Origin: Polyangiaceae bacterium | GTDB lineage: Bacteria > Myxococcota_A > Polyangia > Polyangiales > Polyangiaceae | Direction of reading: 5' to 3' | NCBI GenBank assembly: GCA_025937835.1 | Contig: JAICQO010000020.1 | Coordinates: 1-64,000, forward strand | DNA length: 64,000 nt | In this document: in pieces, positions 4,708-51,474 of the stretch | How positions within the stretch are numbered: position 1 is the stretch's first letter | Layout of the letters: each line of letters opens with the position of its first letter | The notes under the pieces: generated by a model | Database searches by the model: none | Told to the model about the DNA's origin: nothing | What the model saw: the letters and a program-made list of their open reading frames with translations, nothing else | Program-made: the position numbers and the translations under genes

Positions 4708-5422
4708 GGTGCACGATGTACCACTCCCCGCGCCACGAGATCAGCGAGGTGATCTCGAACGCCAGCGATTTTCCCTGGTCGGTCTCGAGCCGGAGCTTCG
4801 AGCGCAGCACGCGGAAGTAACCCACCCGGTTGCCCTCGGAACCCGGCTTCATCCAGCGCACGCCCGCTTCGGGGATCTCGAGCCCCGTCACTTTCAGGAC
4901 CTGCACGTTGGCGCCGATCGCGCGGTGGTACTCGTGGATGTTGCGCTCGAAGGCCGCGACGAGGCGCAGCTTCCAATCGCGCGCCGGCTTCGCGATGTCT
5001 TTCACCTGCTCGTAGGCCACGACCGGAAAGAACGCAGGCAGGGCGATAGCCGGATCGTCCTTCACGATTGCCTCGGCCAGAAGCTCGAGCTTCTGCGCCA
5101 GCGCCGCGCTGTCGGCGCGTGGTCGATCTTCGGTCTGCGGCAGGGCCTTGCCGTCGGGACCGAGCAGCGGATCGACGGGAGCGGGCGGTGCCGCCGGCTC
5201 GGACTCCGAAGCGACCGCCGCGGGCGCGCTCTCGGCAGGTGAAGCTTCTCGAGCGCTCGGCAAGGCCGCCGGCGACGCCACGGGCACCGCCACAATGGGC
5301 TCGCTCGCGCTCGTGACGGCGCTCGCCCCGCCGCGCGGATGCTGGCAGCCGAGCAGGAGCGCAGCAAAAATCCAGGGGGTCGGTTGCGGGCTTCTTGCGA
5401 CCATTCCCGCACAGGATCCCAA
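4691..5422 (-). CDS. Hypothetical lipoprotein
   Basis: FAALLLGCQHP lipobox, A/P/S-rich linker and a globular C-terminus; convergent with the upstream gene. Confidence 0.6.
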   Translation of the reverse strand: MGSCAGMVARSPQPTPWIFAALLLGCQHPRGGASAVTSASEPIVAVPVASPAALPSAREASPAESAPAAVASESEPAAPPAPVDPLLGPDGKALPQTEDRPRADSAALAQKLELLAEAIVKDDPAIALPAFFPVVAYEQVKDIAKPARDWKLRLVAAFERNIHEYHRAIGANVQVLKVTGLEIPEAGVRWMKPGSEGNRVGYFRVLRSKLRLETDQGKSLAFEITSLISWRGEWYIVHLKGFE

Positions 5423-5461: not shown

Positions 5462-5788
5462 TCAGTGGCCGGATGCGCCGCCGGTCTCGTGCTTCGTATC
5501 TACGGCTCCGCCGACGCGCTTCTTCGGGTCGTGGTGCAGACCGTGTTCGTCCGCCTTCCAGCCCGGTGCCAGGCCTGGCTCGTTGCCGACCACCGCGCCC
5601 TCTTCCAACCGGTCGCCGGGGGGAACGCCGTCCGCCCCGACCGGCTGGCTCTCGGCCGTGTCGGGAGGCGGCGGCTGGTAGTCCAGGCTCGGCGACCTGA
5701 CGGGTGCATCGGGATTGCCCGCTGCGCAGGCCGACAGCCAAACAGCCAAGCCAGCCAGCCGAACCAAACCCGAAAGAGTGTGAGACAT
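5462..5788 (-). CDS. Small hypothetical lipoprotein
   Basis: MSHTLSGLVRLAGLAVWLSACAAG signal/lipobox. Confidence 0.55.
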   Translation of the reverse strand: MSHTLSGLVRLAGLAVWLSACAAGNPDAPVRSPSLDYQPPPPDTAESQPVGADGVPPGDRLEEGAVVGNEPGLAPGWKADEHGLHHDPKKRVGGAVDTKHETGGASGH

Positions 5789-47380: not shown

Positions 47381-48601
47381 ATGTGGTGCGGCATCGACCA
47401 GCTCTACGGTGGCTCTCTGGCAGCTCTTCGCCGACGCCTGCGCGGCGCCCGCTTGGGGGTGTTGACCCATGCGGCCGCCCTCGATCGGCGCGGCCAGCAC
47501 TGCCTTTCGGTGCTCGACGAGCTGGGCGTCGCTCCGCGTTTGGTCTTCGCGCCGGAGCACGGGCTGCACGGCGCCGCGCAGGCGGAAGAGCCGGTGGCTG
47601 GCGCTCCCGCGCCCGAAGGTGGAGCACGCCCGCCGATCGTGAGCCTTTACGGCAGCACCAAGGCCGACCTCACCCCCACCGCGGAGGACCTGGCGGAGCT
47701 CGACCTGCTCGTGATCGACCTCGCCGACGTCGGCAGCCGTTACTACACGTACGTGTGGACGGCGCTGATCGCAGCGCGCGCCGCCCGCGAGCGCGGCATT
47801 CACGTGGTGGTGCTCGATCGCCCGAACCCGCTCTCCGGCGATCCGACGACGATCGAGGGCGCGCCGCAAGCCGAAGGCTACACCTCGTTCGTCGGCCTCG
47901 AGCCGCTGCCGATCCGGCACGCGCTCACGCTCGGTGAGATCCTCGCGCTGTTCTTCGAACGCGACGGCTCCCCGCTCGGCCCGGAGGGAGCGCTGTCCGT
48001 CGTCGGCACACTCGGTTGGGAACGCCACCGCACCGCCGAAGCCTGGGGTCGCCCGTTCGTGATGCCCTCGCCCAACATGCCGACGCTCGAGACCGCTCTC
48101 GTCTACCCGGGCGGTTGCCTGATCGAAGGCACGAACCTCTCGGAGGGGCGCGGCACCACGGCCCCCTTTCAGATCGTGGGAGCGCCTTTCCTCGACGCCG
48201 AGCGTTTGGCGCAGGAGCTCACCCAGGTGGGCGTGCTGGGCGCGTGGGTCCGTCCCATCCATTTCAAGCCGAGCTTCGACAAGCACGCCGGCGTCACCTG
48301 CCACGGCGTGATGCTCCACGTCACGAACCCGAGGTTGTTCCGTCCCGTCGCGACCTACCTGACCTTGATCTCGCTCGCACGCCGGATGGCGCCCGAGGCC
48401 TTCGCCTTCCGCGACACGCCGTACGAGTTCGAGACCGATCGACCCGCCTTCGATTTGCTGACCGGCTCCGATCGCGCGCGCCGCCTCATCCTCGAGGGGG
48501 CGCCTGCCGAGGACGTGGTGGCGGAGGTGGCGCCGATCGATCCGAAGCTCCGGGAGAGCGTGGCTGAGGCGGAAGCTCGGCTCGGGCGCGCGCTTTCGTA
48601 G
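47381..48601 (+). CDS. DUF1343 / NamZ-type exo-beta-N-acetylmuramidase family protein
   Basis: GVLTHAAALDRRGQ...VFAPEHGLHGAAQAEE...DLADVGSRYYTYVWT...LDRPNPLSG...MPSPNMPTLETALVYPGGCLIEGTNLSEGRGTTAPFQIVGAPF. Confidence 0.92.
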   Translation: MWCGIDQLYGGSLAALRRRLRGARLGVLTHAAALDRRGQHCLSVLDELGVAPRLVFAPEHGLHGAAQAEEPVAGAPAPEGGARPPIVSLYGSTKADLTPTAEDLAELDLLVIDLADVGSRYYTYVWTALIAARAARERGIHVVVLDRPNPLSGDPTTIEGAPQAEGYTSFVGLEPLPIRHALTLGEILALFFERDGSPLGPEGALSVVGTLGWERHRTAEAWGRPFVMPSPNMPTLETALVYPGGCLIEGTNLSEGRGTTAPFQIVGAPFLDAERLAQELTQVGVLGAWVRPIHFKPSFDKHAGVTCHGVMLHVTNPRLFRPVATYLTLISLARRMAPEAFAFRDTPYEFETDRPAFDLLTGSDRARRLILEGAPAEDVVAEVAPIDPKLRESVAEAEARLGRALS

Positions 48602-50039
48602 CCCTGGCTCCTACCGCCGTCGCGACCCGGTTGCGTCCCTGCTGCTTGGCCGCGTAAAGCGCGCCGTCAGCCGCTTCGACCAGCTCAGCGGCCGACATTC
48701 CGCGCGAGTAGGCGGCCACGCCGAAGCTCGCGCTGACGCGCACGGGAGTCTCGATCGCCTCGACCGCGCGCCGCAAGCGTTCGGCGAGCGACGCTCCGGT
48801 CGCTTCGTCCACGTCCACCAGGAGCACGGCGAACTCCTCGCCGCCGTAGCGGGCAACCTGATCGACGCGACGCACCTCCCTCGCCAGCGCGGCGGCCAGG
48901 TGGACGAGCACCCGGTCGCCGATCGGGTGGCCGAGCGTGTCGTTGATGCGCTTGAAGTGATCCGCGTCGACCATGCACAGCACGAACGCCCGGCCGCGCT
49001 CCCCTTCGGCGACCAGCTGATTCAACCGCTCCCGAAACGCGCGCTGGTTGGCGATCCCGGTGAGCTCGTCGGTGGTGGCGAGCTCGGCGAGGCGCGCCTC
49101 GATCCGCTTCAACTCGGTGATGTCCGCGGCGATCCCCAGGATTTCTTTGGGGCGTTTGTCGCGATACCGCGAGAAGACGTTCTCCCGGGCGCGCAGCCAG
49201 CGGTACTCGCCATCGACTCCCCGCACCCGGTAGGTAAGCTCGGTGTAACCGTCGTCGCTCATCGTGTCGAACTCGGAGAAATGTCCGAGAACAGCCGGCA
49301 AATCCTGGGGATGGATGATGGTCGCAGGCAAACCGTCGCCGAGCACCTCGATCTCTTCCTGCGTGTAGCCGAGCAGCGCGGCAGCGTTCCGGTTCGCGTA
49401 CACGTTCTTGCGCGACGCGAGCTCGAGCACGTAAATCACCTCCGGCGAGGTGTGCGCAATCCGCTCGAACAGGTGTCGATTTCGTTCTGCTTCCTGGAGC
49501 GCGGCATCGACCGCGTACGCCTGCTTCTCCAGGATCTGCTGGTTGCGGCGTAGCTCGAGCTCGTCCATCACGATCCCCGCAAGGCTCTCCAGCACCCCAA
49601 GCTGTTCCGCGCTCACGGCTCGCGGCGCCTGGTCGAGCACGCACAAGCACCCCAATTTGTGGCCGTCCGGCGTACGAAGCGGAACGCCGGCGTAAAAGCG
49701 CACGTGCGGCTCTCCCGAGACCTCCGGGTTCTCCGAAAATCGCGGATCTTCCCGGGCATCGTTCACGACCAGCGGCGCATCTCCGAGGCTCGCCCGAGCG
49801 CAGAACCCGCCGTCTCGGCTGGTCGACGAGGCGCCGCCGCCGCTCGCGGCCTTGCACCACTGCCGGTCTCGGTCGACGAACGTGAGCCGTGCCATCGGCG
49901 CGTGGAGGAGCCGGGCAGCGAGCCCCACGATGCGATCGAAGGCTGCCTCGGACGGCGTGTCCAGGATCTCGTAGCTACGGAGGGCGCGGAGCCGGGAAGC
50001 TTCGTCCGGCGAGACGGGGGCAGTCACGCCCCCATTCAA
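48486..50039 (-). CDS. Diguanylate cyclase (GAF-PAS-GGDEF)
   Basis: GAF (LRSYEILDTPSEAAFDRIVGLAARLL), PAS, TTDELTGIANQRAF, VARYGGEEFAVLLVDVD. Confidence 0.93.
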   Translation of the reverse strand: MNGGVTAPVSPDEASRLRALRSYEILDTPSEAAFDRIVGLAARLLHAPMARLTFVDRDRQWCKAASGGGASSTSRDGGFCARASLGDAPLVVNDAREDPRFSENPEVSGEPHVRFYAGVPLRTPDGHKLGCLCVLDQAPRAVSAEQLGVLESLAGIVMDELELRRNQQILEKQAYAVDAALQEAERNRHLFERIAHTSPEVIYVLELASRKNVYANRNAAALLGYTQEEIEVLGDGLPATIIHPQDLPAVLGHFSEFDTMSDDGYTELTYRVRGVDGEYRWLRARENVFSRYRDKRPKEILGIAADITELKRIEARLAELATTDELTGIANQRAFRERLNQLVAEGERGRAFVLCMVDADHFKRINDTLGHPIGDRVLVHLAAALAREVRRVDQVARYGGEEFAVLLVDVDEATGASLAERLRRAVEAIETPVRVSASFGVAAYSRGMSAAELVEAADGALYAAKQQGRNRVATAVGARATKARARAELPPQPRSPGASDRSAPPPPPRPRQAPPRG

Positions 50040-50357
50040 TCACGCCTCGGACCATTTGAGCAGCACCACCCCCAGGAGTAAAAAGCCGACCGGGATCAGC
50101 CGCCGCACCGTCACCGGCTCGTCGAATGCGACCACTCCGACCGCGAACGCCCCGAGCGCGCCGATCCCCGTCCAGATCGGGTACGCCGTGCCGAGTGGAA
50201 TGCTCTTCAGGGACAGGGAAAGCAGGATGAAGCTCGCCGCGAGCGTCGCGAGCGTGACCAGCGTCGGACCAGGCTTCGTGAAGCCTTGCGATTGCTTCAT
50301 CGAAAAAGCCCAGACCACCTCGAGGGCGCCCGCGAGAACCAACCAGAACCAAGCCAT
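50040..50357 (-). CDS. gdx: SMR family transporter, Gdx/SugE-type guanidinium exporter
   Basis: MAWFWLVLAGALEVVWAFSMKQSQGFTKPGP...LSLKSIPLGTAYPIWTGIGALGAF; GGAG 7 nt upstream of ATG; associated riboswitch. Confidence 0.9.
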   Translation of the reverse strand: MAWFWLVLAGALEVVWAFSMKQSQGFTKPGPTLVTLATLAASFILLSLSLKSIPLGTAYPIWTGIGALGAFAVGVVAFDEPVTVRRLIPVGFLLLGVVLLKWSEA

Positions 50358-50375
50358 GACCACTCTCCAAACGGA

Positions 50376-50430
50376 AGGTCAGGTCGTCCTGACAGAAATT
50401 GCCCGGGATGGGGAGGTCGTCCTCGGGACC
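50376..50430 (-). promoter_or_regulatory. Guanidine-II (mini-ykkC) riboswitch
   Basis: On the - strand: GAGG-ACGA-CCTC (50413-50424) and GTCAGG-ACGA-CCTGAC (50378-50393), two hairpins with ACGR loops, followed by a GGAG SD (50365-50368) and the SMR exporter start at 50357. Confidence 0.9.
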
Positions 50431-50577
50431 CAAGTTAGCAAAAGGCGAACGGTAAGCCAGCCCGCGCAGGGTCTGCGCGGAGCGCGTTCCCGGCGCAACG
50501 GCGACGCGAAAGCGCGCGACGCCGGCAGCGAAACCCGGGCGGTGCTGCCGGCACGATGGTTGCTGTTCGGGCGAAGG

Positions 50578-51474
50578 ATGCTGCGCCCCCCGGTAGCGCT
50601 CGCGCTCTCTCTGGTTTGCATCCCGGCTCTCGGGGCGCCGCGCGCGGCCGAGGAGCGAGCCCAGCCGGCGCTGTCACTTGCGGTCGTCGGCGGGACCTAC
50701 GCAGCGGCGGCGACGTACACCTACTTCTCCTGGTACGGGCGCTCCGAGAACTCGGACACACTCACTTTTCGCGACGAGGGGTTCTTCGGCTACGACACGT
50801 ACGCAGGCGGCGCCGACAGGCTCGGTCATGCATGGTGCAACTACGTGCTGACGCGCGGCATCGGCGGCGTCCTCGGCTGGGGAGGTCATTCGAAGGCCGT
50901 CTCGCTCGCGACTTCGACCAGCCTGGCCTTCGGCTTCTTCCTCTTTGATCGAGCTGAAAGACGGGTACGAGCCGCAGTATGGCTTCTCCTTGGTGATTTG
51001 CTGTTCAACGCCGGCGGCAACGCGTTCGCCGTGGGAGCGGAGCTGCTTCCGGAGCTCGATGATTTCATGGCCTTCCGCCTGAGTTACTGGCCAAGCAAGT
51101 CATTCGTGCGGCAACTGAACGCGGGTGGCGCCTTGAACGTCGCCGAGGACTACAGCGGCCAGGCCTTCCTGGTTTCGTATCACCTGTCTTCGATCCAAGC
51201 GCTGCGGGAGGGGTTGGCTTGGCCGCAGTTCGCGGACCTGACGGTGGGCTATCGAGCGCTCCACTACGAGCCCTCGAGCGCGAGCCGAGCGCGCACCCAG
51301 GAGTTGTTCCGCGGACTGTCGCTGAATCTGCAGCAGGTGATCGATCGCATTCACGGCGGCGCGCCCGCGCGAGCGCCGGCCGGCGTTCGAGCCGCGCGCT
51401 TTGCGACCCAGGTGCTCGCGCCGCCGTTCACGACGCTGGAGCTCGCGTCCGCGTCGCGCAGGCGCTCCGACTAG
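50578..51474 (+). CDS. DUF2279 family protein
   Basis: FFGYDTYAGGADRLGHAWCNYVLTRGIGGVLGWGGHSK; signal peptide MLRPPVALALSLVCIPALG. Confidence 0.7.
   Translation: MLRPPVALALSLVCIPALGAPRAAEERAQPALSLAVVGGTYAAAATYTYFSWYGRSENSDTLTFRDEGFFGYDTYAGGADRLGHAWCNYVLTRGIGGVLGWGGHSKAVSLATSTSLAFGFFLFDRAERRVRAAVWLLLGDLLFNAGGNAFAVGAELLPELDDFMAFRLSYWPSKSFVRQLNAGGALNVAEDYSGQAFLVSYHLSSIQALREGLAWPQFADLTVGYRALHYEPSSASRARTQELFRGLSLNLQQVIDRIHGGAPARAPAGVRAARFATQVLAPPFTTLELASASRRRSD

Follow-up and report, generated by a model that had tools for sequence, protein, structure and literature searches.

A short-P1 guanidine-II element upstream of a Gdx-type exporter gene in a Polyangiaceae bacterium, predicted to activate translation

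In the 64,000-nucleotide stretch of contig JAICQO010000020.1 that was analyzed here (the window), the minus-strand leader upstream of a gdx gene is very probably a guanidine-II (mini-ykkC) riboswitch that turns on translation of the Gdx guanidinium exporter. The leader reads ...CCCGAGGACGACCUCCCCAUCCCGGGCAAUUUCUGUCAGGACGACCUGACCUUCCGUUUGGAGAGUGGUCAUGGCUUGG, and its aptamer (50379-50428, minus strand) matches the Rfam guanidine-II model RF01068 over its full length (model positions 1-48 of 48, 30.1 bits). It is composed of the 4-bp hairpin P1, GAGG-ACGA-CCUC (50413-50424), a linker of 19 nt (50394-50412), and the 6-bp hairpin P2, GUCAGG-ACGA-CCUGAC (50378-50393). Both tetraloops are ACGA and thus of the ACGR type (50420-50417 and 50387-50384), GG...CC pairs adjoin both of them, and the stems are rich in G+C. 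The Shine-Dalgarno sequence GGAG (50365-50368) lies 9 nt 3' of P2 and 7 nt 5' of the AUG start codon at 50357. On re-reading the sequence, the bases and coordinates given for all these parts in the original prediction were found to be exact, and the over-extended plus-strand ORF that it placed across the element is also present, at 50056-51474 with a TTG start; in that ORF, the DUF2279 domain is carried by the part from 50578 onward alone. The search for a sigma-70-like promoter found none for the leader, and such a search is of little weight for this lineage. Like the guanidine-II element of E. coli gdx (RF01068), the window element has two ACGR hairpins with GG-CC closing pairs, lies just 5' of the gdx ribosome-binding site, and has a linker inside the range of 7-40 nt described for the class (PMC7544219). 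Altogether, the end-to-end match to RF01068, the Gdx-type gene downstream and the ACGR loops kept in related gdx leaders bear out the class assigned earlier: the element is an ordinary member of the known guanidine-II class.

The gene that follows the leader (gdx, 50040-50357, minus strand) encodes a 105-aa protein of the small multidrug resistance (SMR) family (Pfam PF00893, 1.9e-28). Its nearest solved structure is Gdx-Clo (6wk5, 4.8e-27, ungapped across 102 residues), with EmrE reaching only 5e-9, and the top NCBIfam model is SugE (NF008512, 1.6e-28), which at 99 bits stands 30 bits above every other SMR model and falls short of its equivalog cut-off of 126 bits. The protein has all five binding-site residues, namely E13, W16, S42, Y59 and W62; of these, W16 is a conserved feature of Gdx proteins, and Qac proteins have Gly or Ala at that position (PMC7695847, from which the residue roles were taken). 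We therefore labelled the protein Gdx-type and not a SugE equivalog, since the residues and the nearest structure fit while the NF008512 cut-off is missed. The Gdx subtype claimed for this gene beforehand thus agrees with both its structural neighbor and its site residues, and family membership supports guanidinium export as its predicted function. On the same strand, a GAF-PAS-GGDEF diguanylate cyclase gene (48489-50036) begins within approximately 15 nt of the gdx stop, so that the two genes may share a transcript headed by the riboswitch. In the related genomes G308, G005 and G289, no GGDEF gene was seen immediately 3' of gdx.

As for the switching step, guanidine is known to bind both ACGR loops of the class, which make a C-G kissing contact, and release of the Shine-Dalgarno sequence has been proposed (PMC5486947, PMC9300104); for the P. 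aeruginosa member, guanidine-dependent translation initiation has been shown (PMC9561414). What the sequence shows for the window leader is a two-hairpin aptamer with its conservation and covariation, placed immediately 5' of the ribosome-binding site of a Gdx gene; that it binds guanidinium, and which way it switches, we infer. The most likely step is translational ON-switching through an anti-Shine-Dalgarno sequence, CCUCC, made up of the P1 3' arm CCUC and the next C. Judging from this complementarity and from the models of other members, at low guanidinium CCUCC would pair with GGAG and little initiation would take place. At high guanidinium, each ACGR loop would take up one ion and P1 and P2 would make a loop-loop kissing contact through C-G pairs, as in other members; this would hold CCUCC inside P1, GGAG would be freed, and Gdx would be made and export guanidinium. 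As CCUCC is strongly complementary to the GGAG region, formation of P1 would be expected to exclude that Shine-Dalgarno pairing, and vice versa.

It is rather unlikely that this guanidine-II switch uses instead an anti-Shine-Dalgarno sequence in the linker or in P0, an alternative that concerns the switching step only and would leave the identity of the element unaffected. Such an arrangement, in the linker or the 5' flank, has been published for E. coli and P. aeruginosa (PMC9094411, PMC9300104, PMC9561414). Of the two hairpins compared in the window leader, however, P1 gives the stronger predicted pairing with the GGAG region, at -12.8 kcal/mol through its loop and 3' arm against -7.8 kcal/mol for the equivalent part of P2, and the predicted fold of the 86-nt leader adopts the P1-GGAG pairing, in which GACGACCUCC of P1 pairs with the GGAG region. 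The preferred step, with CCUCC in the P1 3' arm, has also to be read against other folding results. The 86-nt fold is no more stable than shuffled sequences (z 0.04), predictions vary with the length folded, and P2 breaks in the prediction when longer coding sequence is included. Moreover, with P1 and P2 held, GGAG is still predicted to be mostly paired, in a small local UUCC/GGAG hairpin, so that folding prediction alone demonstrates no clean switch. When compared arm by arm, P1 and the ribosome-binding region showed no covariation, own pairing being no better than swapped; the same comparison gave a weak signal for P2, as 29 of 5000 swaps reached the own value.

We then turn to the strength of the covariance-model match. 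A scan of the whole window against Rfam at gathering cut-offs matched no RNA family. In the E-value scan, RF01068 aligned to 50428-50379 (minus strand) at 1.9 bits below its gathering cut-off of 32 bits, with the three outer P1 positions unpaired. The E-value of this match is 1.05e-3 for the entire 6.9 Mb genome, in which the next weaker candidate reaches 18.9 bits and the sole stronger match is a canonical element of 43.8 bits on another contig. The expectation that a search with this model would recover the element was thus borne out in that the match is full-length and clear of the genomic background, but not in that its score stays under the cut-off. Compared with gdx/sugE-associated members of RF01068, the window element differs in its score, in its P1 of only 4 bp, in the overlap of the anti-Shine-Dalgarno sequence with the P1 3' arm, and in a linker that may form a small hairpin.

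To place the short P1 in a broader context, genome contigs were scanned with the pattern GAGGACGRCCUCC followed by a second core and ATGGCNTGG, which returned at least 120 stretches; among the matches listed, most belong by record title to Alpha-, Beta- and Gammaproteobacteria, alongside a few Bacteroidota and a single Archangium MAG. The short-P1 arrangement upstream of gdx is thus shared by more than 100 genomes besides that of the window. Leaders examined numbered 123, those of the window, G005 and G308 included; P1 has 4 bp in 43 of them and 5 bp in 54, and pairs 3-6 of P2 show several standard pair types. With 43 of 123 leaders sharing it, a P1 as short as that in the window is nothing unusual. 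Seven short-P1 leaders score above the RF01068 cut-off, at 32.6-39.2 bits (L052, L076, L091, L111, L134, L175 and L178). No report at that cut-off was obtained for L056 (G005), L100, L109, L110 and L139 despite their short-P1 form, nor for L090, whose P1 has 5 bp. The scores of short-P1 leaders hence straddle the cut-off, and missing it is common for genuine-looking members.

Conservation was assessed in related genomes, in which an SMR match was found in 19 of 59, counting the window's own. The gdx gene of G005, from the same genus, shows the highest identity after that of the window itself (63% over 76 aa); its leader has AGAGGACGACCUCCCCGAUUCGUCGGGUAGCCAACGCUGGGACGACCCAGU before the gene, and that of G308, from the same family, has GCGAGGACGACCUCCCCC...CCGGGACGGCCCGG. 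All 12 core bases of P1 are identical in the window, G005 and G308. The P2 arms of the three leaders are GUCAGG/CCUGAC, GCUGGG/CCCAGU and CCGGG/CCCGG, respectively, and all of them pair, which makes the changes compensatory. The absence of both ACGR loops from orthologous leaders had been named as evidence against the class; in G005, the closest orthologue, both are kept. Another genome of the family, G289, carries a canonical guanidine-II element with a long P1 before gdx (48.2 bits). A looser pattern, in which the cores of the two hairpins are combined with ATGGCNTGG, matched five times in 318 genomes of the class, and four of the matches are the gdx leaders described above. The pattern GGACGACCTCC-N5-30-GGACGRCC alone gave 27 matches in the 318 genomes, mostly due to chance; since a reversed-pattern control gave nearly as many, it was used solely together with gene context. 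RF01068 matches at L005, L032 and L034-L036 in the class were discounted, as they sit in coding-like GAGGACGAC repeats. In G005, gdx (L056/L010; L056 1587-1850) is interrupted by unrelated sequence after its third transmembrane segment and encodes only 87 aa, owing either to a genuine truncation or to a joint in the assembly; its riboswitch is intact.

These comparisons bear on whether the window element could be a decayed, non-functional remnant whose P1 shrank to 4 bp as regulation was lost, as the score under the Rfam cut-off and the short P1 might suggest. We consider this quite improbable: a P1 of exactly 4 bp occurs in 43 of the 123 gdx-type leaders, six leaders with such a P1 (L076, L091, L111, L134, L175 and L178) pass the cut-off, and the invariant loops and P1, together with the compensatory changes in P2, point to constraint and not to decay. 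That the element is a chance pair of hairpins, or the transcription terminator of another gene, can be practically dismissed. A simple terminator scan does list P2, and its tail is partly T-rich, but the tail CTTCCGTTTG has no U-run, the ACGA loops recur in other genomes with the same number, spacing and place 20 nt 5' of the gdx start, and the window holds one copy of the core pair GGACGRCC-N8-38-GGACGRCC where dinucleotide shuffles predict 0.04. The paired hairpins at 50424-50378 (minus strand) exceed chance.

A guanidine-II leader is nevertheless missing before most of the relatives' SMR genes. Among the leaders of 20 such genes that were inspected, the two-hairpin motif was recognized by eye only in G005, and guanidine-III was present in three. 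The guanidine-III elements (RF01763, 58-62 bits) precede the SMR genes of G027, G048 and G026 (L011, L013 and L020), relatives at family or order level. They share with the window the type of gene and presumably the ligand, whereas guanidine-III is a pseudoknot class with another RNA architecture, absent at the window locus. Different riboswitch classes thus precede the same kind of gene in these relatives.

We also examined the linker, which has been called poorly conserved (PMC9561414) and is modelled as unpaired in Rfam RF01068. In the window, its first 11 nt can form CCC-AUCCC-GGG (50412-50402, minus strand), a weak form, followed by 8 nt to P2; in G005, the corresponding hairpin is CCCGA-UUCG-UCGGG. 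The 123 leaders had been collected with CCUCC in P1 as a requirement; 71% of them have a small hairpin that begins no more than 2 nt from P1, as do 65% of 34 dissimilar linkers, compared with 13% in shuffles and 38% when 5' arms were swapped between leaders (maximum 56% in 300 trials). GGG is found in 69 of 118 linkers of gdx leaders versus 15 in shuffles. The arms are diverse (CCCA/UGGG, CUCA/UGAG, ACGCUU/AAGCGU, CGCGGC/GCCGCG), and the spacing to P2 is 7-9 nt in most leaders. A fixed-column covariation test was mixed, with a strong signal at linker lengths 22, 23 and 27 and none at 21. Among seven leaders not selected for CCUCC (six found by gene, plus G289), two have a clear linker hairpin, one a weak one and four none. 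Such a covarying hairpin in many gdx-type leaders, and weakly in the window, may be previously unreported, and we regard it as a modest lead. More specifically, we propose, tentatively and with slightly less than even confidence, that gdx-type guanidine-II leaders with linkers of at least approximately 17 nt carry a third covarying mini-hairpin just 3' of P1, usually 7-9 nt from P2, whose 5' arm would form with the P1 3' arm an anti-Shine-Dalgarno stretch, which P1 and the mini-hairpin would jointly mask in the ON state. If confirmed, the linker hairpin would give a sharper switching model for a well-studied small riboswitch.

Further guanidine-II elements were encountered in other contexts. 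Two genomes of the same genus share a conserved element of 37.7 bits (L006 and L007, 1501-1548); immediately 3' of it, no guanidine gene is evident. In L175, two elements (5042-5090 and 5528-5571) lie less than 500 bp apart, the first of them before gdx. In G256, an element of 37.8 bits (L033, 1501-1545) is located directly 5' of a 398-aa ORF for an apparent non-SMR membrane transporter. The gdx leaders of Sinorhizobium meliloti and Shinella (L217 and L215) have one clear GGACGGCC hairpin, and any partner is off consensus.

The 43.8-bit element of the window's own genome is found on contig C144, immediately 5' of a UAAP1 gene (TIGR03425, 3.4e-97), and apparent ABC transporter components flank it on the opposite side. 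Guanidine-II elements are known to occur in guanidine-utilization operons (PMC12186494). With a gdx switch and a guanidine-II element before UAAP1 in one genome, guanidine sensing spans export and probably breakdown. Overall, the Rfam cut-off misses short-P1 members of guanidine-II, the window element included, and this element adds a predicted guanidine-responsive exporter to a genome that already has a UAAP1-linked guanidine-II element.
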